Virus record (IMG/VR): IMGVR_UViG_3300011116_000961 | Span: 1-44,545 of that record | DNA: 44,545 nt | Reading direction: 5' to 3' (one strand) | Source: a virus | Part shown: positions 4,038 through 37,592 of the stretch, piece by piece | Position numbering within the stretch: position 1 is the stretch's first letter | Layout: the number at the start of each line of letters is the position of its first letter | The notes under the pieces: model-generated | Database searches by the model: none | Told to the model about the DNA's origin: nothing | Seen by the model: the letters and a program-made list of their open reading frames with translations, nothing else | Position numbers and translations under genes: made by a program

Positions 4038-4676
4038 ATGCAAACCGAAGTGATTTCTTTTTATAGTGACATAGACGGTAAAACATATTACAGCGATCAT
4101 GCAAAACGTCTTAAAATACAATTAGATGCTTTACGTATTCCTAATGATATACAAGAAAAACCGTCGCTAGGAACATATCAAAAAAATTGTTTAAGTAAAC
4201 CCGCATTTATTTACAAAATGCTTGTTGAAAAGCAACGACCTATTATATGGCTTGATATTGATTCAGATGTTCGCAAACCACTGCACGTGTTTGATCAGTT
4301 TGAAGGAAATACTGATTTAGCTGTGGCGTGCTCCACAGCCAAATTACATGCGGCCAAAGCATCGCCAATTTATCTGGCATTTAATTCTAAAACTTTAGAA
4401 TTTTTACAACATTGGAATTATATGGCACGCCAGATGATGAATAATGGCCAGTGGTTTGATCACGAAGCTCTGGTTGGGATTCTTCATTCATTTTATCAAA
4501 AAGACGGATTTCGAATGAAATTTGTTGGGCCAGAATATTGCGTGTGGCCCGGTGAAGAAAACGATAATAGTGTTATTGTTATGGGATTAGCTGATGCAGA
4601 TTCTAAAAAAGAAGCATTAAAGCGTTTAGGAATGAGTGAGGATTTAATAGCATGGCAAAGTCCGGGCACAAAGTAA
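4038..4676 (+). CDS. GT-A-type glycosyltransferase (nucleotide-diphospho-sugar transferase fold)
   Basis: The 212-aa protein has a DxD-type metal site in IIWLDIDSDVRKP (~69-81) preceded by a conserved NCLSKPAF.Y motif, as in small GT-A enzymes that use nucleotide sugars. It is clearly paralogous to the gene at 7799-8380 (shared NCL.KP.FI ... IIW.D.D..V). It starts 3 nt after regA and is the first gene of the AT-rich island. It overlaps the next GT gene by 25 nt. Donor and acceptor cannot be predicted; modification of a surface or virion glycan is inferred from context. Confidence 0.75.
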   Translation: MQTEVISFYSDIDGKTYYSDHAKRLKIQLDALRIPNDIQEKPSLGTYQKNCLSKPAFIYKMLVEKQRPIIWLDIDSDVRKPLHVFDQFEGNTDLAVACSTAKLHAAKASPIYLAFNSKTLEFLQHWNYMARQMMNNGQWFDHEALVGILHSFYQKDGFRMKFVGPEYCVWPGEENDNSVIVMGLADADSKKEALKRLGMSEDLIAWQSPGTK

Positions 4677-5515
4677 AAGGAATAGGATTACCGTTTGAAT
4701 CACAATATTCGTCTTGTTCTAATATAAAACCACAAAAATTTGAATGGTCTTTAGAAAAGGGCGAGTTTGATGTTCACGTAGATAAAGGATTACTTGTTCG
4801 ACCAGATAATTCTATCACAAAAGATAAACGTTATGGGTGGGTATGCGAGTCTAGATTTATCGTGCCAGATGTATATAATTTTTTAATCCATAACCATAAA
4901 GTACTTTTTGAAAATTTTTATACAGCAATCTACACATGTGATCAATCTTTATTAAATTTAGATCACCGATTTAAATACTGTCCAAACGGAAGTAACTATC
5001 CGTGGATACGAAAATCTGACTGGGGGATTTATCAAAAAACTAAAAAGTGTTCTATGTTTGCTTCTCCAAAACAATACACAGAAGGACATGTATACCGACA
5101 CACAATAGCTAGACTGGCTCTTGATCGCGGATTTGATGTTTTTGGTGGTGCACACGGAACACCCAGAACAGTAATAGACCCAATGAATCCTTGGAACACC
5201 AAACTAGAAGGAATAGGTTATTATATGTTTAGTATAATTATAGAAAATGGTAATTACGATGCTTATTATACCGAAAAATTAACAGATTGTTTTGCGACAG
5301 GAACTGTGCCCATATATTGGGGAACAAAAAAATTACCAAAAGAATTTGACCCAGAAGGAATAATATGGTTGAATAAAGACAGCGAACAATCGATATTAGA
5401 TTCGTTATCTCGTGAATTATATGAATCTAAAATAAAATCAATAAAACATAATTTAAATGCATTGGTTGATCTGCTTCCTGCTGACGATTTTTTGTTTGAG
5501 GAAATAGTTAAGTGA
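4652..5515 (+). CDS. GT10-like (alpha-1,3/4-fucosyltransferase-type) glycosyltransferase
   Basis: The protein is 287 aa. Its C-terminal half contains the GT10 signature IENGNYDAYYTEKLTDC followed by GTVPIYWG (about residues 200-225), the region that binds GDP-fucose in characterised GT10 enzymes. It starts inside the previous GT gene (25-nt overlap), and its TGA overlaps the GTG start of the GT11 gene. A second GT10-like gene follows at 6310. With GT11 and the GDP-mannose dehydratase at 16253 this points to fucose or a related GDP-deoxyhexose. The exact sugar is unproven. Confidence 0.83.
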   Translation: MAKSGHKVKGIGLPFESQYSSCSNIKPQKFEWSLEKGEFDVHVDKGLLVRPDNSITKDKRYGWVCESRFIVPDVYNFLIHNHKVLFENFYTAIYTCDQSLLNLDHRFKYCPNGSNYPWIRKSDWGIYQKTKKCSMFASPKQYTEGHVYRHTIARLALDRGFDVFGGAHGTPRTVIDPMNPWNTKLEGIGYYMFSIIIENGNYDAYYTEKLTDCFATGTVPIYWGTKKLPKEFDPEGIIWLNKDSEQSILDSLSRELYESKIKSIKHNLNALVDLLPADDFLFEEIVK

Positions 5516-6222
5516 TAACATTTTCGTTTATTGGAAACTTTGGTCGTTTGGGAAATCAGATGTTTCAATACGCTGCAATTGTGGGTATTGCAAAAAAGAA
5601 CGGTTACGATTACTGTTTTCCGTTAAAAAATACACAACTACCAAACTGGTTTAATATAACAGCCAAAGACGGAGTACACCAATGCCAACGAGCACATTTA
5701 GAGAGTTTTGGATTTGAGCCAGCAGTTTTTCAACTACCTGATAATATAGATTACTCTGGCTATTTTCAAAGTGAAAAATATTTTAAACACTGTTCAGACC
5801 TCATACGAAACGAATTTACATTTAAAAATAATGTAACACAAAAAGTAGACGAATGGTTTAAAGGTAAACAATTTGTTTCTGTTCACGTCAGACGTGGAGA
5901 CTATTTGCCAATTCAAGACATTCATCCAGTTGCTTCTATAGAATGGTATCGTGAAGCAATGAAACGCTTTCCTGATAAAAAATTTTTATTCTTTAGTGAT
6001 GATCTTGATTGGTGTAAACATACATTTCCAGAACACGAATTTTCTCCTTTTACAAATGAAGGAGAAGACATGTATGCCATGAGTAGATGTTCAGGACATA
6101 TTATTACCAATAGTTCTTTTAGTTGGTGGGGAGCTTGGTTGTGTAAAGGAAAAACTATAGCACCAAAAACATGGTTTGGTCCTAATGGACCACAAGATTG
6201 GCAAGTAAAGGAAAAACTATAG
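5512..6222 (+). CDS. GT11-like alpha-1,2-fucosyltransferase, 3' end altered by tandem duplication
   Basis: GT11 hallmarks are plain: GRLGNQMFQYAA (~11-22) and the GDP-binding HVRRGDY (~125-131), plus the late TNSSFSWWGAWL motif. The start is GTG 5512 inside the preceding gene's stop (GTGA). The reading frame ends after 236 aa with an odd VKEKL tail because a 62-bp unit is duplicated in tandem (6143-6266). If one copy is removed, the protein continues with DIYCTDWVII and stops, giving 241 aa with a normal-looking GT11 end. The present product loses only the last 10 residues, so it may still be active. Confidence 0.87.
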   Translation: MITFSFIGNFGRLGNQMFQYAAIVGIAKKNGYDYCFPLKNTQLPNWFNITAKDGVHQCQRAHLESFGFEPAVFQLPDNIDYSGYFQSEKYFKHCSDLIRNEFTFKNNVTQKVDEWFKGKQFVSVHVRRGDYLPIQDIHPVASIEWYREAMKRFPDKKFLFFSDDLDWCKHTFPEHEFSPFTNEGEDMYAMSRCSGHIITNSSFSWWGAWLCKGKTIAPKTWFGPNGPQDWQVKEKL

Positions 6223-6266
6223 CACCAAAAACATGGTTTGGTCCTAATGGACCACAAGATTGGCAA
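6143..6266 (+). repeat. Perfect 62-bp direct tandem duplication in the GT11 gene
   Basis: Bases 6143-6204 and 6205-6266 are identical, 62 bp each (63 counting one shared flanking G). Because 62 is not a multiple of three, the second copy shifts the frame and brings in the TAG stop at 6220-6222. Perfect identity implies a very recent event or an assembly artefact. Confidence 0.97.
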
Positions 6267-6309
6267 GATATATACTGTACTGATTGGGTGATAATATAAT
6301 TTTTATAAA

Positions 6310-7170
6310 ATGAAACCGTTAATATTTAATGCTGACCATCTAATACCACCATACACAATAAAAGATTTATCTGAATCTTACGAAATTCATTTTAACAGAT
6401 TTGGAAATAATCAAGGAATTGGTGGTCCTGTTACTTTTTTTTCTGATGCACCTAATAAAATATTTGTAGATATAAATGAACCACCATATCCTATTTGTAG
6501 CATGACAGAAAAAGCAGAAACTGTTATAGCAAATCAATCACATTATACGTCTATAATATCATCGAACACAACTATTTTAAATGGTTGTAAAAATTCTATA
6601 AAAATGTCCTACGGAACAACTTGGTTAAATAAATCAAAAAATAACCACAGAGATGCAATAGGAGTATTTACAGAATCTTTGGGCGAATTAAGAAAAGAAA
6701 ACACACTCAGTATGGTTTGTACTTCGCACACAAAGCACAAAGCATACGAGATCAGACACGAAATATGGAATAATAAAGAGAAAATACCAACAGAATTAAA
6801 ATTTTATTCTTCAACTCGTTATCCTGTGCAAAATGGAATACCTCTTCCTAATGATGATAAAATAAATTTATTTTATTCAATGTATTCTATTGCATTAGAA
6901 AATTCAAGTATAACTAATTATTTTACTGAAAAACTCATAGATTGTTTAATTACAAAAACTATTCCAATTTATTGGGGGTGTCCAAATATTACAGAGTATT
7001 TTGATACCAGTTATTGGATAGATGTTAAAGACATTTTTACTTTTAATTATACTAAAGAATACTATTATAGTAATTTAGATAAAATTAATAATAATTTTGA
7101 AAAAGCAAAAGAATATTGTAAACCTATGTTAGAAAGAATAATAACAGCAATTTCAAAGGAAACAAAATGA
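6310..7170 (+). CDS. GT10-like glycosyltransferase (second copy)
   Basis: This 286-aa protein is very AT-rich in coding sequence. Its C-terminal third carries the GT10 donor-site pattern: YSIALENSSITNYFTEKLIDC followed by KTIPIYWGCPNI (about residues 196-228). It is related to the gene at 4652 but well diverged. The N-terminal half (HFNRFGNNQGIGGPVTFFSD) is family-variable, as expected for acceptor binding. The 3' end overlaps the FkbM gene by 4 nt. The intergenic segment 6223-6309 holds the second repeat copy and the stranded GT11 tail. Confidence 0.8.
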   Translation: MKPLIFNADHLIPPYTIKDLSESYEIHFNRFGNNQGIGGPVTFFSDAPNKIFVDINEPPYPICSMTEKAETVIANQSHYTSIISSNTTILNGCKNSIKMSYGTTWLNKSKNNHRDAIGVFTESLGELRKENTLSMVCTSHTKHKAYEIRHEIWNNKEKIPTELKFYSSTRYPVQNGIPLPNDDKINLFYSMYSIALENSSITNYFTEKLIDCLITKTIPIYWGCPNITEYFDTSYWIDVKDIFTFNYTKEYYYSNLDKINNNFEKAKEYCKPMLERIITAISKETK

Positions 7171-7802
7171 TTATAGATATACAAAAATTAAATCTTCGTT
7201 CAAATGGTGTTATACAAATTGGTGCACACCATGGTCAAGAACACAAAACACACAAAAATATAGGTTGCACAAAATTTTTATATTTTGAACCACAAAAAGA
7301 CGTGTTTAATATATTAAAACAAAATATTGAAAAAGAAAAAACAGAAAAAGACTTTATAAAATTATATAATTGTGCTTTAGGCGAACAGTCTTGTATCATG
7401 GAAATGTATAAAGAAAAAGATAATACCGGTCAAAGCAGCTCGTTATTAGAACCGTATCTTCATCTAGAACAATATCCTGGAATAAAATTTACAGAAAAAG
7501 AAACAGTTACTGTAAAGACTTTAGACTCAGTTTTAGAAGAAGATAATTTAACGCCCGAAGATTACGATTTTTTAAATATAGATGTTCAAGGTTATGAATT
7601 ACAAGTACTAAAAGGTTGCAAAAAACAATTACAACACGTTTATAATATTATGCTAGAAGTAAACAGAGCCCCTGTTTATAAAAACTGCGCAATGGTATAC
7701 GAAATAGATGATTTTTTAAGAGAATATGGATTTAAAAGAATAGTAACTGAATGGGCAGGTGGTATATGGGGCGATGCAATCTACACTAGGAGCCAACAAT
7801 GA
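7167..7802 (+). CDS. FkbM-family SAM-dependent methyltransferase
   Basis: This 211-aa protein shows the FkbM pattern: VIQIGAHHGQE (~15-25, SAM-binding glycine motif), FLYFEPQKD (~39-47), and DFLNIDVQGYELQVLKG (~135-151), where the Asp precedes the characteristic QGYE. FkbM enzymes O-methylate sugars or small molecules. Here it sits among glycosyltransferases with 4-nt overlaps on both sides, so methyl-capping of a glycan is the likely role. Such a cap could end chain growth or hide a receptor. Confidence 0.88.
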   Translation: MIIDIQKLNLRSNGVIQIGAHHGQEHKTHKNIGCTKFLYFEPQKDVFNILKQNIEKEKTEKDFIKLYNCALGEQSCIMEMYKEKDNTGQSSSLLEPYLHLEQYPGIKFTEKETVTVKTLDSVLEEDNLTPEDYDFLNIDVQGYELQVLKGCKKQLQHVYNIMLEVNRAPVYKNCAMVYEIDDFLREYGFKRIVTEWAGGIWGDAIYTRSQQ

Positions 7803-15891: not shown

Positions 15892-16253
15892 ATTATCCTA
15901 AACTTAAAAAAACTTGGATATTTGATCTTGACGGAACTTTAGTTGTTCATGGCGGATATCTAAACGGTAAAGAAATAAAGTTACCAGGAATAGATGATTT
16001 GTTTAATACTATTCCTAAAAACGATATGATAATTATAGTTACTGGTCGCCCAGAAAGCGATAAAGAAACAACTATTCAAAATCTTAAAGAATTGAATATA
16101 AGATTCGATCATATAATATTTGATGCTGGCAAAGGGGCGCGAATAGTAATCAACGACACAAAACCCAGTGGATATAAAACAGCACATTCTTTCGGAATAA
16201 CTAGAGATGCTGGTATAAATAAAGACGACCTTACTTTTTTTATGGAGTTATAA
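15888..16253 (+). CDS. HAD-family phosphatase
   Basis: GTG 15888 overlaps the methyltransferase stop; 121 aa. HAD motif I is WIFDLDGTL (nucleophile D13 and acid/base D15), motif II IIIVTGRPES (Thr), and motif IV is IVINDTKPSG (Asp) with a preceding lysine. It lacks a large cap, as do GmhB- and KdsC-type sugar phosphatases. It stands between a sugar-activating enzyme and a sugar-nucleotide dehydratase, so removing a sugar phosphate is the likely step. A nucleotidase role cannot be excluded. Confidence 0.8.
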   Translation: MNYPKLKKTWIFDLDGTLVVHGGYLNGKEIKLPGIDDLFNTIPKNDMIIIVTGRPESDKETTIQNLKELNIRFDHIIFDAGKGARIVINDTKPSGYKTAHSFGITRDAGINKDDLTFFMEL

Positions 16254-17233
16254 TGAATAAAAGTGCTTTGATTATTGGCGCAAACGGCCAAGACGCATCT
16301 TATCTTGCCGAGTTTCTGTTGGAAAAAGGATATAAAGTTCACGGAACAATACGAAGAAATTCTGTACCAGAGTCGCAGACTACACGTATAGAACATCTAC
16401 ACAAAGATAATACAATAAGTTTACAATATATGGATCTGATAGATCCTATCAGTGTTGATTCGGTTATCAATAAAACACAACCAGACGAGATATACCATCT
16501 AGGAGCGCAATCACACGTTCAAATTTCGTTTGATCTTCCAAAATACACTTTAGATGTAAACAGTGGTGGAACACTAGCAGTATTAGAAGCAGTCCGTAGA
16601 TTCTCACCCCATTCTAGAGTGTATCATGCTGCAACATCTGAGATGTTTGGTAACTCGTGTGACCCCGATGGATTCCAAAGAGAAACAACACCATTAGTTC
16701 CAGTGAGTCCTTACGGTTGTTCTAAACTATACGCCCATACGTTATGCAACAATTACAGAAACGCCTACGGAATATACGTGTGCTCTGGTATTCTTTTTAA
16801 TCACGAGTCTCCCAGACGTGGAATTAATTTCGTAACCAATAAAACTGTTTTAGAGGCTGTAAAAATTAAGTTAGGCATGTCCGACAAATTAGTTTTAGGC
16901 AATCTACACTCCAAACGAGACTGGGGCCACGCAAAAGATTACGTAGAAGCTATGTGGTTGATGTTACAACAAAAGACTCCCAAAGATTTTGTTATAGCAA
17001 CAGGAGAAACCCGAACAGTAAAAGAGATGGTAGAGTACGTATTTGGTAAATTAGGTTTAGATATGAACCAATACGTAAAAACTGATAAAAAATTTGAACG
17101 TCCAGAAGAGTTAAACTATCTTCGTGGAGATTCACAGCTTGCCAGAAATATATTAGGATGGAAGCCCAAGTATACATTTGAAACCATGATGGACGAAATG
17201 ATCCAATACTGGTTGGTAAACTTGCCTAAATAA
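16253..17233 (+). CDS. gmd: GDP-mannose 4,6-dehydratase-type SDR enzyme
   Basis: The 326-aa protein starts ALIIGANGQDASYLAEFLL, the NADP-binding G..GQD motif of Gmd, and has the GTIRRNS segment. The catalytic Tyr lies in PVSPYGCSKLYAH (~150-162), and the NHESPRRGINFVTNK segment (~184-198) is diagnostic for Gmd-type dehydratases. Gmd converts GDP-mannose to GDP-4-keto-6-deoxymannose, the precursor of GDP-fucose, rhamnose or perosamine; close relatives (DmhA) act on GDP-heptose. GGAG precedes ATG 16253. It is slightly shorter than E. coli Gmd (373 aa). No GDP-fucose synthase lies in the window. Confidence 0.93.
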   Translation: MNKSALIIGANGQDASYLAEFLLEKGYKVHGTIRRNSVPESQTTRIEHLHKDNTISLQYMDLIDPISVDSVINKTQPDEIYHLGAQSHVQISFDLPKYTLDVNSGGTLAVLEAVRRFSPHSRVYHAATSEMFGNSCDPDGFQRETTPLVPVSPYGCSKLYAHTLCNNYRNAYGIYVCSGILFNHESPRRGINFVTNKTVLEAVKIKLGMSDKLVLGNLHSKRDWGHAKDYVEAMWLMLQQKTPKDFVIATGETRTVKEMVEYVFGKLGLDMNQYVKTDKKFERPEELNYLRGDSQLARNILGWKPKYTFETMMDEMIQYWLVNLPK

Positions 17234-24442: not shown

Positions 24443-26704
24443 ATGCCTATTAATTTTCCAACAACATCAACCGTAGGATTTACGTACACGTACAACAGTA
24501 TGTTGTGGACGTGGAACGGTTACGCATGGGATAAAACAGAGGGATTTGGTGTGGCTGGAACTACAGGAGCCACCGGTCCTACTGGTGCTACTGGTCCTGT
24601 TGGTGATTACGTTAGTTATTGGAACGGCCAAACGGGTGCAGTAACGTTTAGTAACTACGTGGCTAGTTTTGGTGGTCGAACCGGAACTGTTGGTGCTGGC
24701 GTAACTTCCACCCAGATCTTGTATTGGTCAAACAACAATGTAACCGGTTCCAATAATTTTACGTTTGACGGTGTAGACGTGGTTACTCTAGCAGAAACTG
24801 GGCATTATTCAGGACGATTGCTTGGCCCTGTTCTTCTGCCCATTAAAAATACAGGATTAACCTTGATCAATATGGGAGATCCTGTATACGCTGTGGGTAG
24901 CGTGGGAAACAGTGGAGTGGTAGAAGTTTTTGGTGCAGACGCTGCAGTATCCGATAAAATGCCTGCCATAGGTCTGGCAGACTCCAGTCTAGCCCACAAT
25001 GCTACAGGCCATGCGGTTGTGTTTGGTAATCTTAAACTGGTAGATACCAGTGCGTACACTATAAACGGTACCGTATTTGTGGCTCCCGGTGGTGGACTGA
25101 CCGGTATCAAACCTACCGGAGCTAACGACCAGATACAAAACATTGGTCGTGTGGTTCGTGTTAATCAAAGCACCGGAGACATTTTGGTGTCTGCTATTGG
25201 TCGTAGCAACGACGTACCAAACATCTTGCAAGCTCGTTCGTGGCTACAGATGCCAGACGGCATGACTGCCACAGGATTGGTAAAATCATTTAACGGTCTA
25301 ACCGGTGCTGTTACAGGAGTTACCACCTCTACATCTAACAGGTTTACAGCCACACAGATATTTGCTGCAGGTCTTACCGCATCAGGAATAACTACACCCA
25401 ACGTGTATCCACCACCTAGTGGCACTATTACTTTAGGTATTCCTACTTCTACTACTAATATAACTGTGAACGATTCTCAAGAAACAGTAAGTATAATAGC
25501 AGGATCTCAAGTTTTACTACAAGCCTCTACCTCTGTTACTGATGCTTTTAGTATTAGTGCTGATCAAACTGTTGCGGTTCCGTTTACTGTTTATACTGAC
25601 ACTACTGGATCTCAAAATGCTGTAGAAATAGTAGACCAGTCTTCCAACGTTCTTGCAGGAATAACACCTAAAGGTGTTGCATTTTTTAACAGAGGATTAA
25701 CCGGATCTGGCCTTACATTGATTGGTAACGGTCTGGTAACAGGATCGCTTGAGGTTGACGGTACTCTGATATTAGGTAGTGGTCAAGGTATAACAGGAGC
25801 TGTAACCTCGTTTAATGGACTAACAGGAGGAGCTGTAACCTCGTTTAATGGACTAACAGGAGCAGTATCAGGTGTTACTGCGATAAATGCTGGAACCGGA
25901 ATTTCTATAACCGGAACTACTAATCCTACAATTACCAATACCGGCGTTACAGGATTTAACGGAGCAACCGGAAATGTTACAGGAGTTACTGGAGTTGTGG
26001 CAGGTACCGGTATTAGCATATCAGGAACAACGCGTCCCACAATTACCAATACTGGTGTGCAAACCTGGAACGGATTAACAGGTGCCGTGACTGGTGTTAC
26101 CACTTCTGTAGCTAACACATTTACTGCACTACAAACATTTAATTCTGGTATTTCTGCTGCCGGTAGTACATTCACAACCATAGCAGCAGGTTACATTTAT
26201 TCTAATGTACCGACTCCAGTATATACACTTTATATTAATAATCTTGGAGCCAGTCAAACATTTATTGGTGATTGGGATGGAGCTGGTGCAAATACTTACA
26301 TTAAAGTAAATGACGATAGCGGAGATATTACTCTTAATGCTCCATCTTCTGGTGTTGTATCTTATGGAGAACTAAATAACGATACAAGTATTGGAGTTAA
26401 TGATGGGATAGCTGCTGCTTATACCAAAGTATATCCAGGTACTATTCAATTTTTTAGTAATACCACTCCTAATTCGCAAACTTGGACTCCATCCGTAGGA
26501 GGAGCAAACAGCACTATTACCTTCCCTGATACAACCACAACTCTGGCAGGATTGTCACTGGCTCAAACATTTACAGCCCTTCAAACATTTAATGCTGGTA
26601 TTACTGCGGCTGGTGCTACATTCTCTGGGAATGTCCATGTACTAAACACCACAAACAATACGTCTGTACAAGTAACAACAAACGCTAGGAGTTGGTTCTT
26701 ATGA
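24443..26704 (+). CDS. Large repeat-rich tail fibre protein
   Basis: The 753-aa protein begins FPTTSTVGFTYTYNSMLWTWNGYAW, a common fibre head module (t.P..G.tYt.ng..W.wdG..W). A short collagen-like GATGPTGATGP stretch follows at ~44-54. The body repeats the motif FNGLTGAVTGVTT and variants (at least eight copies), and a longer unit AGTGISI.GTT.PTITNTGV occurs twice. Residues ~115-255 hold a globular domain (AVGSVGNSGVVEVFGADAAV). This architecture is typical of long-fibre proteins in T4-like aquatic phages. The end overlaps the next gene by 4 nt (ATGA). Confidence 0.85.
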   Translation: MPINFPTTSTVGFTYTYNSMLWTWNGYAWDKTEGFGVAGTTGATGPTGATGPVGDYVSYWNGQTGAVTFSNYVASFGGRTGTVGAGVTSTQILYWSNNNVTGSNNFTFDGVDVVTLAETGHYSGRLLGPVLLPIKNTGLTLINMGDPVYAVGSVGNSGVVEVFGADAAVSDKMPAIGLADSSLAHNATGHAVVFGNLKLVDTSAYTINGTVFVAPGGGLTGIKPTGANDQIQNIGRVVRVNQSTGDILVSAIGRSNDVPNILQARSWLQMPDGMTATGLVKSFNGLTGAVTGVTTSTSNRFTATQIFAAGLTASGITTPNVYPPPSGTITLGIPTSTTNITVNDSQETVSIIAGSQVLLQASTSVTDAFSISADQTVAVPFTVYTDTTGSQNAVEIVDQSSNVLAGITPKGVAFFNRGLTGSGLTLIGNGLVTGSLEVDGTLILGSGQGITGAVTSFNGLTGGAVTSFNGLTGAVSGVTAINAGTGISITGTTNPTITNTGVTGFNGATGNVTGVTGVVAGTGISISGTTRPTITNTGVQTWNGLTGAVTGVTTSVANTFTALQTFNSGISAAGSTFTTIAAGYIYSNVPTPVYTLYINNLGASQTFIGDWDGAGANTYIKVNDDSGDITLNAPSSGVVSYGELNNDTSIGVNDGIAAAYTKVYPGTIQFFSNTTPNSQTWTPSVGGANSTITFPDTTTTLAGLSLAQTFTALQTFNAGITAAGATFSGNVHVLNTTNNTSVQVTTNARSWFL
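25796..25861 (+). repeat. Perfect 33-bp tandem duplication in the tail fibre gene
   Basis: Bases 25796-25828 and 25829-25861 are identical. The 11-codon unit encodes GAVTSFNGLTG and keeps the frame, extending the fibre repeat by one unit. Confidence 0.95.
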
Positions 26705-33835: not shown

Positions 33836-35229
33836 TGAAAGAATTTGAACTAGTGCTTCTGGAGGCTCTTCTCTTCCGAGAAGACTTCTACAAGAAGGTT
33901 ATACCTTTTATCAAGAACGAATACTTCCACAGGAAGCCTATTCAGATGATGTACACGTGCATTCACGACTTTGTGATGCAGTACAACACGTGTCCATCCA
34001 AGGACGCTGTGAGTATCTGTCTTGAGAAGCACAAGGGGATTGCTCAGAACGAATACGATGAATGCATTCAAATGCTGGAAGACTTTAGCAAGAAGTCTGC
34101 AGACCAACACAACTTGGAATGGCTGGTCACAGAAACTGAAAACTTCTGTAAGGAAAAGGCTCTATACAATGGTATCATGGAGTCCATTCAGATTATTGAT
34201 GGAAAGTCCAAGGACAAGATCCGAACAGCTATTCCAAGTATTTTATCTGATGCTCTTGCAGTTAGTTTTGATACTAATATCGGTCATGATTACCTGGAAG
34301 ATTCGGATAGACGGTACGACTTTTATCATCGAATCGAAAAGCGGATTCCGTTCGATCTGGAGTTTTTCAACACCATCACCAACGGTGGAACCCCCATCAA
34401 GACCTTGAATATTGTGATGGCAGGTACAGGTGTAGGTAAGTCACTATTTCTTTGCCATCATGCAGCAAATTGTCTTGCACAAGGCATGAACGTGTTGTAT
34501 ATTACATGCGAGATGGCCGAGGAACGAATTGCTGAACGTATTGATGCCAACATGTTGGATATCACTCTAGACTCGCTTCGTGAACTACCCAAGGAAGTGT
34601 ACGAGAAGAAAATGGCTACCTTGAAGCAAACCGCCAAGGGTAAGATTATTATTAAAGAGTATCCTACATCCAGTGCTAGTGTGAATCACTTCCGTGTGCT
34701 GCTAGACGAACTAAACTTGAAGAAGAAGTTTAAGCCAGACGTGATCATCATTGATTACCTAAATATATGTGCGTCCAGTCGTATGAAGCACAACGGAAAC
34801 GTTAATTCGTACATGTACATCAAGGCTATTGCAGAAGAACTGCGAAGCATGGCTGTGGAATACGGTGTTCCGGTCTGGTCTGCCACACAGGTTAATCGTG
34901 TAGGATTTGCCAGTACTGATATCGGTCTGGAAGACACTTCCGAATCGTTTGGTCTGCCTGCAACCGCAGACTTTATGTTTGCACTGATCTCTACAGAAAA
35001 GCTGGACGAGATGAACCAGATCATGGTGAAGCAGTTAAAGAACAGATACAACGATACCGCAATCAATCGTAAGTTTATTGTGGGTATCAATCGTGCTAAG
35101 ATGAAACTGTTTGATGTGGAGCAGACACAACTGGCGGATGCCAATCAAGAGCCGGATACCGAAGAAGATGAAGAGTATCGGTTTACCAGCAAGTTTGGTA
35201 AGAAAGACTTTTCTAAGTTTCGATCATGA
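33835..35229 (+). CDS. 41: Replicative DNA helicase (gp41, DnaB-like)
   Basis: The 464-aa protein (T4: 475) has an N-terminal helical domain (~1-160) and a RecA-like core: Walker A MAGTGVGKS (~195-203), ITCEMAEERIAERIDANML (H1a/hexamer interface), VIIIDYLNICASS (Walker B), WSATQVNRVG (H3), and the arginine-finger region NRYNDTAINRKFIVGINRAKM. It unwinds DNA 5'-3' at the fork with primase gp61. ATG 33835 overlaps the preceding TAA (TAATG). The C-terminus is acidic then ends KKDFSKF. Confidence 0.95.
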   Translation: MKEFELVLLEALLFREDFYKKVIPFIKNEYFHRKPIQMMYTCIHDFVMQYNTCPSKDAVSICLEKHKGIAQNEYDECIQMLEDFSKKSADQHNLEWLVTETENFCKEKALYNGIMESIQIIDGKSKDKIRTAIPSILSDALAVSFDTNIGHDYLEDSDRRYDFYHRIEKRIPFDLEFFNTITNGGTPIKTLNIVMAGTGVGKSLFLCHHAANCLAQGMNVLYITCEMAEERIAERIDANMLDITLDSLRELPKEVYEKKMATLKQTAKGKIIIKEYPTSSASVNHFRVLLDELNLKKKFKPDVIIIDYLNICASSRMKHNGNVNSYMYIKAIAEELRSMAVEYGVPVWSATQVNRVGFASTDIGLEDTSESFGLPATADFMFALISTEKLDEMNQIMVKQLKNRYNDTAINRKFIVGINRAKMKLFDVEQTQLADANQEPDTEEDEEYRFTSKFGKKDFSKFRS

Positions 35230-36257
35230 CGCTATTCATTGACAAAAAATTCATCAATCTGATGTCAGGCCAACTCCAACGGTTTGCGTGGAAGAAAGAC
35301 AATCTGGCAAACTGTCGTTGTCCTATCTGTGGTGATTCCAGCAAGAACAAAGTTAAGGCTCGTGGATTCTTTTTTGAGAAGAAAGGTGAGTTCTTTTTTA
35401 AGTGTCATAACTGCAGTATTGGTCTTAACTTATACAACTTTATGAGTAAAGTTGCTCCAAACCTATGTAAAGAGTACAGTCTAGAAAAGTTTAAAGAGAA
35501 ACAACCAACACAGGAAAGGGAAAAACCTAAGATGCTGTTCTCCAAGAAGCCCAAGAAGAAATATACGATTGAGCTACCTACCGTTGCGGAACTACCACCC
35601 AACCATATGTGCCGTCAGTTTGTGGAGTTGCGTCACATCCCTAAGAAGATGTGGCAACACCTGTATTACGCTGAAGATTTTGCACAATGGGCACGACGCA
35701 TCAATTCGGAATCTGCTGAAGGTCTTGCAAGCGAGCCTCGTCTAGTTATTCCTATTCTGGATCGTAAAGGGCATCTTGTAGGAGCACAAGGACGAATTCT
35801 TAAAGTGTCTACAGATCGTGCTGCTCGTAAAAGTGTACGTTACATCACAATTAAGCCTGATGATCAAGAACACAAGTCTTGGTACGGTCTAGATCGTCTG
35901 GATCTGTTGGGAACAGTATACGTGGTTGAAGGCCCATTAGATTCACTGTTTATTCCTAACTGTCTTGCTACTGTAGGAATGAGCGACGTGTTCAATCCAC
36001 CAAAAGAAATTAAATCTCGTTCTGTTATTTACGTCATGGATAACGAACCACGAAATCTACAAGTGGTTCAAACTATGGAAAAACTTATTGATCAACACAA
36101 ACGAGTTTGTGTATGGCCGGATCATATCAAGCATAAAGACGTTAATGATATGATTATGGATGGTATGGATGCAACCAAAATCCTAAATACCATTAACGAG
36201 AATGCTGTGTCGGGGCTTGAAGCACAAATAAGGATCAAAAAATGGAAGAAGATTTAA
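35226..36257 (+). CDS. 61: DNA primase (gp61, DnaG-type with zinc finger and TOPRIM)
   Basis: The 343-aa protein (T4: 342) carries an N-terminal zinc ribbon with Cys32, Cys35, Cys60 and Cys63 (CPIC ... CHNC), a central RLVIPILDRKGHLVGAQGR strand region (~172-190), and a TOPRIM domain with VVEGPLDSLF (~233-242) and YVMDNEPRN (~269-277), followed by CVWPDHIKHKDVND (~295-308). It makes RNA primers with gp41 for lagging-strand synthesis. It overlaps gp41 by 4 nt and the acidic gene by 16 nt. Confidence 0.95.
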   Translation: MTLFIDKKFINLMSGQLQRFAWKKDNLANCRCPICGDSSKNKVKARGFFFEKKGEFFFKCHNCSIGLNLYNFMSKVAPNLCKEYSLEKFKEKQPTQEREKPKMLFSKKPKKKYTIELPTVAELPPNHMCRQFVELRHIPKKMWQHLYYAEDFAQWARRINSESAEGLASEPRLVIPILDRKGHLVGAQGRILKVSTDRAARKSVRYITIKPDDQEHKSWYGLDRLDLLGTVYVVEGPLDSLFIPNCLATVGMSDVFNPPKEIKSRSVIYVMDNEPRNLQVVQTMEKLIDQHKRVCVWPDHIKHKDVNDMIMDGMDATKILNTINENAVSGLEAQIRIKKWKKI

Positions 36258-36529
36258 CTCCAGACGAGCCAGAAAAAGAATACGAAGAGATAGAAATAGA
36301 CAGTGATAATCCTATATTTGTGTTTTGTTTTATGTTCATGGAATATATTAAGGAAATAGATCCAAAACTATACGACAAAGCCCATAAATATGCACACGAC
36401 CATACAGATATTGATATTACAGATTTTGAAATAGGTGAATTTGAAGAAATAGAAGAAGACGATGAGATTGAAGATGAAGATGAAGAGGACGATGGAGATA
36501 TAGATTATGATACAGACAAATACGAATGA
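36242..36529 (+). CDS. Highly acidic small protein of unknown function
   Basis: The protein is 95 aa. Both ends are almost solid Asp/Glu (opening MEEDLTPDEPEKEYEE, tail EIEDEDEEDDGDIDYD), with a short less acidic centre (NPIFVFCFMFMEYIKEIDPKLYDKAHKYAHDH, residues ~22-55). Such acidic proteins can mimic DNA or bind basic domains, but no specific homology is visible. It overlaps primase by 16 nt and the TOPRIM gene by 23 nt, so it belongs to the same transcript. Translation in this frame is supported by coupled starts and GAAGAAG-type purine tracts upstream. Confidence 0.65.
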   Translation: MEEDLTPDEPEKEYEEIEIDSDNPIFVFCFMFMEYIKEIDPKLYDKAHKYAHDHTDIDITDFEIGEFEEIEEDDEIEDEDEEDDGDIDYDTDKYE

Positions 36530-37592
36530 TTATCTAAGTCCAGATGAAATTGGAGAATTAGATGACAGTAATTATATCGTAACAGAACAATATTATCTGA
36601 ACGATCAGTCGGATGATAACTACGGAGTCTTGTATGCAAATACAAGATTTGTCCCTGCTGAAGAAAAAGAATTGTATTTTTTTGTTGAAAATTTATACGA
36701 TTGGTTTGAAAAATATGCGGTTTTAGACGATGAAACATTAAATTTCATAAAAAACGAATATCCGTATATGTTAAAAGATCCTGCAGATGTAACAACACTA
36801 GGGAAAGGATACAGTTATATTGGTTGTTTTTGCAGAAATTCAGACGGAAAAATATATGGTGTTTCTTTAAGAAATATTGGGTTTACATTCGTGGAACGTA
36901 AGTTTGTAAGATTTTTCTTTAGATTTTGTTATAATAAAAATAAAAATAAATTAGTTTTTTTTAGATATAAAATTGGTACAACCTTTAAACCCGGTTTAAA
37001 GGATTTTATAAAATTTAAAGATTTTCAATGGTTTACTAATAGAAAGACTAAAGTAGATCCAACCAAACCTATAGTTGTTACAGAAGGGATATTTGATGCT
37101 AATTTTTTTGACAATTCAATAGCATTAGGTGGTATTTTACCAGGATTAGCAATACCAAAATTGTATAAAGATTCGGAATTAATATTTGTGTTAGATAATT
37201 CAATTAATAGAAATATATACAGAGTTTCTAAAAATATATTAAAAATGGGGTATAAACTATTTGTCTGGCCCAGTTCATTAATTGGATTTAAAGATTTTAA
37301 TGATTATATTAGAAGTATATACGAACAAAATTCTGTAAAATTTAGACTACAACTACCATTTGAATATAATTATGACATAAAAAAAGGATTAATGAATAAT
37401 ACAAATCAAGGATTTAGAAAATTGCCTATAAGAATAACTGAAGGCGAGTATCCTAATTATATTCTTCCTTCACCGGAATTTATAAGAGAAGCCAAATCTA
37501 TTTTGTATAAACTGGTGTTTTTAGATAATAATTTATTAGAGCATAAAGATTTACAAACATTTGAAGCAAAATATACTCGAAAACAATTATAA
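36507..37592 (+). CDS. Divergent second TOPRIM primase-like protein, no zinc finger
   Basis: A 361-aa AT-rich gene just after primase. Residues 190-270 parallel gp61: VVTEGIFDANFF (gp61 VVEGPLDSLF), FVLDN at 227-231 (YVMDN), LFVWP (CVWP) and FKDFND (HKDVND). The E-to-D distance (Glu193 to Asp230) is 37 residues in both. Upstream, YIGCFCRNSDGKIYGVSLRN matches gp61's IPILDRKGHLVGAQGR. There is no CxxC zinc ribbon; the N-terminal ~100 residues are instead acidic and aromatic. A primase paralogue with changed function is the best reading. GGAG at 36494-36497 supports the ATG 36507 start. Confidence 0.75.
   Translation: MIQTNTNDYLSPDEIGELDDSNYIVTEQYYLNDQSDDNYGVLYANTRFVPAEEKELYFFVENLYDWFEKYAVLDDETLNFIKNEYPYMLKDPADVTTLGKGYSYIGCFCRNSDGKIYGVSLRNIGFTFVERKFVRFFFRFCYNKNKNKLVFFRYKIGTTFKPGLKDFIKFKDFQWFTNRKTKVDPTKPIVVTEGIFDANFFDNSIALGGILPGLAIPKLYKDSELIFVLDNSINRNIYRVSKNILKMGYKLFVWPSSLIGFKDFNDYIRSIYEQNSVKFRLQLPFEYNYDIKKGLMNNTNQGFRKLPIRITEGEYPNYILPSPEFIREAKSILYKLVFLDNNLLEHKDLQTFEAKYTRKQL

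Follow-up and report, generated by a model that had tools for sequence, protein, structure and literature searches.

Is a glycosyltransferase gene that carries a perfect tandem duplication switched off, and could it be switched on again? This question is raised by a gene of the GT11 fucosyltransferase family in a 44,545-base virus record of a marine T4-like phage, the whole of which is referred to here as the window. An earlier note on this DNA had proposed that a 62-bp repeat truncates the gene and might act as a phase switch.

A duplication within the sugar cassette of a T4-like phage

The left side of the window encodes an exonuclease, a sliding clamp, and a clamp loader, and the right side a DNA polymerase, a UvsX-like recombinase, a replicative helicase, a primase, and a ribonucleotide reductase. 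The best of the DNA polymerase matches listed in sequenced phages were those of Synechococcus phages (47% identity). A second primase-like ORF with weak matches to primase PHROGs was observed at 36507-37592, near the main primase gene (35226-36257) and in a stretch of lower GC content (0.31). The sugar cassette sits between the clamp-loader and DNA polymerase genes. It contains a GT10-like, the GT11, another GT10-like, and an FkbM methyltransferase gene; SIS-domain, nucleotidyltransferase, methyltransferase, GDP-mannose dehydratase-like, and GT2 genes also belong to it, and tail genes follow. The relevant features are listed below (L numbers denote loci fetched for comparison).

4652..5515, + strand: upstream GT10-like fucosyltransferase gene (Pfam PF00852), overlapping the GT11 start; syntenic in L089, L101, L102, and L002
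5512..6222, + strand: GT11 fucosyltransferase-family gene with the duplication (PF01531, PHROG 2644); 236 aa, GTG start, TAG stop within copy 2
6143..6204, + strand: copy 1 of the 62-bp unit
6177..6192 (second copy 6239-6254), + strand: short inverted repeat TGGTCC-TAAT-GGACCA inside the unit; modest hairpin (fold z −1.44)
6205..6266, + strand: copy 2 of the 62-bp unit, where the reading frame is shifted by one base; the match extends to a 63rd base, 6267
6267..6299, + strand: 3′ end of the one-copy GT11 gene (DIYCTDWVII, TAA 6297-6299), which the duplication puts out of frame; L089, L101, L002, and L238 have matching tails
6310..7170, + strand: downstream GT10-like gene (PF00852)
7167..7802, + strand: FkbM-family methyltransferase gene of the same cassette (PF05050)
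16253..17233, + strand: GDP-mannose 4,6-dehydratase-like gene (PF16363, 382 bits; TIGR01472, 376.9 bits, below its 415 cut-off), the predicted product of which is a possible source of a GDP-deoxysugar

The two copies of the unit are identical at 62 of 62 bases, as the earlier note had stated, and the match at period 62 spans 63 bases when the additional base at 6267 is counted. Identity of this length excludes chance as an explanation. Three perfect tandem duplications with a period of at least 12 were present in the window (periods 62, 12, and 33). A perfect 33-bp (11-codon) tandem repeat is found at 25795-25862, within a 753-aa ORF (24443-26704) among the tail genes.

The encoded protein scored 106.4 bits against Pfam PF01531 (curated cut-off 23.9) and 221 bits against PHROG 2644, and the Pfam match (residues 12-221) is untouched by the duplication. 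With two copies, the ORF ends in ...GPQDWQ-VKEKL-stop after 236 aa; the frame that continues through copy 2 ends in DIYCTDWVII (stop 6297-6299). With a single copy, the product would be 241 aa long, and the two-copy allele swaps the last 10 of these residues for five (VKEKL). Thus, what had been noted earlier about the family of the gene, the length and C-terminus of the one-copy product, and the closure of the frame after VKEKL agrees with the Pfam score, the orthologs L089, L101, L002, and L238, and ORF 5512-6222, respectively. The frame is indeed broken, but "truncates" overstated the result, as 236 instead of 241 aa remain and the GT11 domain match is whole: the duplication exchanges the tail rather than truncating the protein deeply. 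Rescue by ribosomal frameshifting was considered and rejected; a −1 shift would be needed, no canonical heptamer was seen by eye before the TAG, and the product would retain an insert of ∼20 residues. The duplication also lengthens the distance from the GT11 stop to the next start (6310) to 87 bases, versus 10 with one copy, which could lower translation of the downstream GT10-like gene.

Single-copy relatives

Six other distinct contigs contain the syntenic GT11 gene and its neighbors (L089, L101, L102, L002, L238, and L003; the L102 contig, also fetched as L163, L237, and L242, was counted once). L003 ends within the GT11 gene and stands outside the count of complete genes. All five others contain one copy of the unit and the tail of the 241-aa form, the L102 ortholog with an internal stop in addition. 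Alignment confirmed that the orthologs are single-copy at the DNA level, at 84-86% protein identity for the one-copy relatives. These five complete syntenic genes support the one-copy form as the ancestral state.

Synteny in L101 continues straight across the duplication site. As the lengths of the ORFs between 4652 and 12372 equal those in L101 within 1 aa, the GT11 gene excepted, the base quality of the window looks good. Among viral contigs, an exact 22-base search with the duplication junction gave no match in any second contig, and an exact 26-base search with the unit gave none elsewhere. No contig of the window's own strain turned up; a search for near relatives with positions 20000-44545 returned none, and a DNA search in phages yielded only five weak partial matches.

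The cassette itself is variable. Among 23 distinct contigs with ≥3.2 kb of sequence downstream of a gp44 of ≥85% identity (31 rows, loci of one contig merged), three carry GT11 at this place. The FkbM genes of L089 (14015-14641) and L002 (5954-6580) are free of synonymous differences across the 209 compared codons, while about 19 sites differ between the adjoining GT11 genes, which points to patchwork recombination within the cassette.

Contribution of the lost C-terminus

W238 is conserved in 59 of 63 aligned homologs and D232 in 55, and 60 of them end in I, L, or V. The resulting tail pattern, D-I/L-Y-x3-W-x2-I/L, is a feature of this set of phage homologs and not of the GT11 definition. The window allele lacks this conserved Trp-bearing tail. 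From the SWW motif to the end of the protein, 98 of 99 distinct complete homologs (98 with SWW) have 38-49 residues, compared with 33 in the window, and the profile score of the window protein is 312.7 versus 331.1 bits.

AlphaFold2 predicted the window protein with a mean pLDDT of 94, falling to 57 at the last residues; the end of the intact L101 protein was predicted at 96, with a terminal strand at 239-240. Both models have the same fold. Their best structural matches were POFUT1 and NodZ (Z about 14, about 203-212 residues aligned, rmsd 3.0-4.3), which places them in the GT-B fucosyltransferase fold; Foldseek matches were FUT8, NodZ, and POFUT1. A sequence search of solved structures gave no match.

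The GT11 dN/dS is 0.07 between the window and L101, at a dS of about 1, and about 0.07-0.08 against three orthologs, which indicates that the gene remained functional until recently. Because the copies are free of mismatches at this dS, the duplication is far younger than the split between the window and L101. As the tail is conserved and ordered in the L101 model, and the gene is under strong constraint, the two-copy allele is likely a loss of function. With the GT11 core and the fold match intact, the putative enzyme may retain some activity.

Origin of the repeat and frequency of such arrays

The sequences flanking the copies share 1 bp of microhomology, no more than expected by chance and short of the 6-10 bp of T4-type junctions. 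Since only this one base is shared, there is no sign of slippage on preexisting repeats or of the T4 route. No pre-existing repeat or hypermutable tract was found in the orthologs L089, L101, L102, and L002. A hairpin-driven origin was not convincing, as 15 of 200 shuffled sequences folded equally well.

Tandem Repeats Finder (TRF) detected seven arrays with a period of at least 25 and at least 90% identity in the 244 fetched loci (3.42 Mb, partly overlapping), and six of the seven periods are multiples of three. The seventh array, a perfect 26-bp repeat of 2.8 copies (L016, 18649-18720), is the sole other with a period of at least 25 that is not a multiple of three. The small number of such arrays suggests that coding duplications of this size that break the frame are rare, be it as mutations or as artifacts.

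A second lesion in the GT11 gene

L101 and L102, from two metagenomes, differ at four of 11,932 sites, and one of these differences converts codon 151 of the GT11 ortholog from AAA to TAA (K151*; L102 4958, locus coordinates). With four random substitutions, the probability that one or more of them creates a stop is about 1.4% for GT11 and about 19% for any gene of the stretch. K151* is a lesion independent of the duplication and hints, with small numbers, at an on/off polymorphism. Lesions are thus present in two of the six contigs with a complete syntenic GT11 gene, the window being included by ascertainment. GT11 genes are not generally broken: 119 of 120 homologs are intact, and the sole broken one is that of L102.

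Near-identical pairs of contigs were compared gene by gene (58 component pairs, 1,145 gene tests, 16 skipped). Four rows were flagged: the GT11 stop (one of 60 GT11 tests), a 2-bp indel in another gene (L147/L146), and two rows involving L131, which were judged to be a start-site artifact (an indel in an over-long start). That one of two genuine disruption events falls in GT11 is not significant. A looser version of the test was discarded; all four of its rows were K151*, entered via four loci of one contig, and the stricter test is less favorable to recurrence. Three GT10b rows flagged as broken probably reflect ORFs cut off at contig ends, as the matches lie near the ends of short loci. Recurrent GT11 inactivation in this clade is therefore suggestive only.

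Competing explanations

We consider it an even call that the two-copy allele is a real, recent, and revertible loss of function. A functional GT11 gene, part of the variable glycan cassette of this T4-like phage, would have acquired, very recently and spontaneously, the 62-bp tandem duplication; with copy 2 read out of frame, the conserved tail would be replaced by VKEKL, which probably renders the enzyme unstable or inactive, and the next gene may be translated less. Exact deletion of one perfect copy should restore the gene at high frequency. This reading presumes that the repeat is present in the phage and not merely in the assembly. As losing a copy would be far easier than making one, the allele is better described as a one-way revertible lesion than as a two-way switch.

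Possible, with a probability well short of even, is an assembly artifact in which pieces overlapping by 62 bases were joined with the overlap retained, so that the phage itself has one copy and an intact gene. The duplication was seen once, its copies are perfect, and its microhomology is a single base, all of which favor this explanation. Moreover, 62 equals k−1 for k = 63, a common assembler setting, but this agreement is weak because many values of k are in use. The arrays in the fetched loci are mostly of another type (six of seven in multiples of three, the seventh being the 26-bp array of L016), and an error-rich IMG/VR contig does exist: in L244 (IMGVR_UViG_3300045125_000073), gp44, the ortholog of 4038-4676, and GT10b are each split over several HSPs. 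Against an artifact speak the unbroken synteny with L101 across the site, which speaks for no chimera at all, and the full-length neighboring genes of the window; the rarity of such arrays favors neither side, since artifacts of this kind would be as rare as real duplications in the 3.42 Mb. A real duplication could also be harmless, the 236-aa VKEKL enzyme still working and nothing being switched. The whole GT11 match (residues 12-221), the mean pLDDT of 94, and a structural match to POFUT1 and NodZ as good as that of the intact ortholog are consistent with this view, but the near-invariant W238 and D232 are gone and only 33 residues follow SWW, compared with 38-49 in the 98 homologs, which renders it unlikely.

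We regard it as very improbable that GT11 is an evolved contingency locus, repeatedly turned off and on in phage populations by duplication or other lesions so that a glycan varies. K151* as an independent lesion among only four differences (chance about 1.4%), lesions in two of six complete syntenic genes (one by ascertainment), and the variable cassette (GT11 in three of 23 contigs) would fit such a locus. The single broken gene among 120 homologs, the nonsignificant pair test, and the orthologs devoid of a common repeat or hypermutable tract do not. Of the phase switch proposed in the earlier note, the mechanistic part stands in that perfect copies can collapse, for which the excerpt of PMC4243769 provides a precedent in pneumococcal capsule genes; the switch as an evolved device is not supported, given the repeat-free orthologs, the 1 bp of microhomology, and the confinement of the allele to one contig. 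We also doubt, somewhat less strongly than for the evolved contingency locus, the related idea that, in this clade, the phage GT11 gene forms a natural on/off locus, at which differently made broken alleles (the 62-bp duplication and K151*) coexist with intact ones because fucosylation of the host surface or virion pays or costs depending on the host or coinfection setting.

Comparison with known systems

If the real and revertible loss of function holds, the duplication together with K151* would constitute a concrete on/off polymorphism in a phage sugar-modifying gene that can be tested with reads; if the repeat is an artifact, it cautions against inferring switches from single metagenome contigs. 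The fucosyltransferases of Helicobacter pylori are phase-variable by frame changes at homopolymer tracts. The genes are frame-switched there by such tracts, whereas the window gene has neither a tract nor, by eye, a canonical −1 slippery heptamer before the TAG. A search of the literature by title found no phage glycosyltransferase phase-varied by tandem repeats, though one may exist in print.

Hypervariable islands of pelagimyophages and cyanomyophages hold glycosyltransferases that are thought to alter the host surface and prevent coinfection, according to the excerpt of PMC7029224. Those phages are likewise T4-like and marine and have glycosyltransferase clusters, but the main island described in that excerpt lies among structural genes (small clusters elsewhere are mentioned), and the cassette of the window lies between the clamp-loader and polymerase genes. 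In T4, segmental amplifications of dmd-tifA typically begin at microhomologies of 6-10 bp (PMC9391042, in excerpt). A T4-like phage generating tandem repeats through its own recombination is common to both cases; there, the repeats serve gene dosage and start from 6-10 bp, whereas the repeat in the window breaks a gene and is flanked by 1 bp. The closest parallel is found in pneumococcal capsule genes (cap3A, cap8E, and tts), which are reversibly inactivated by tandem sequence duplications (PMC4243769, in excerpt; its reference list names Waite 2001 and 2003 for these duplications). In both systems, a duplication within a glycan ORF breaks the frame; the capsule genes are bacterial and their phase variation is reported, whereas the gene described here is a phage gene, its duplication was seen once, and only the last 10 residues are affected. 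Should the two-copy allele be real and revert, it would extend to phages the type of revertible duplication in glycan genes that is known from bacterial capsules.
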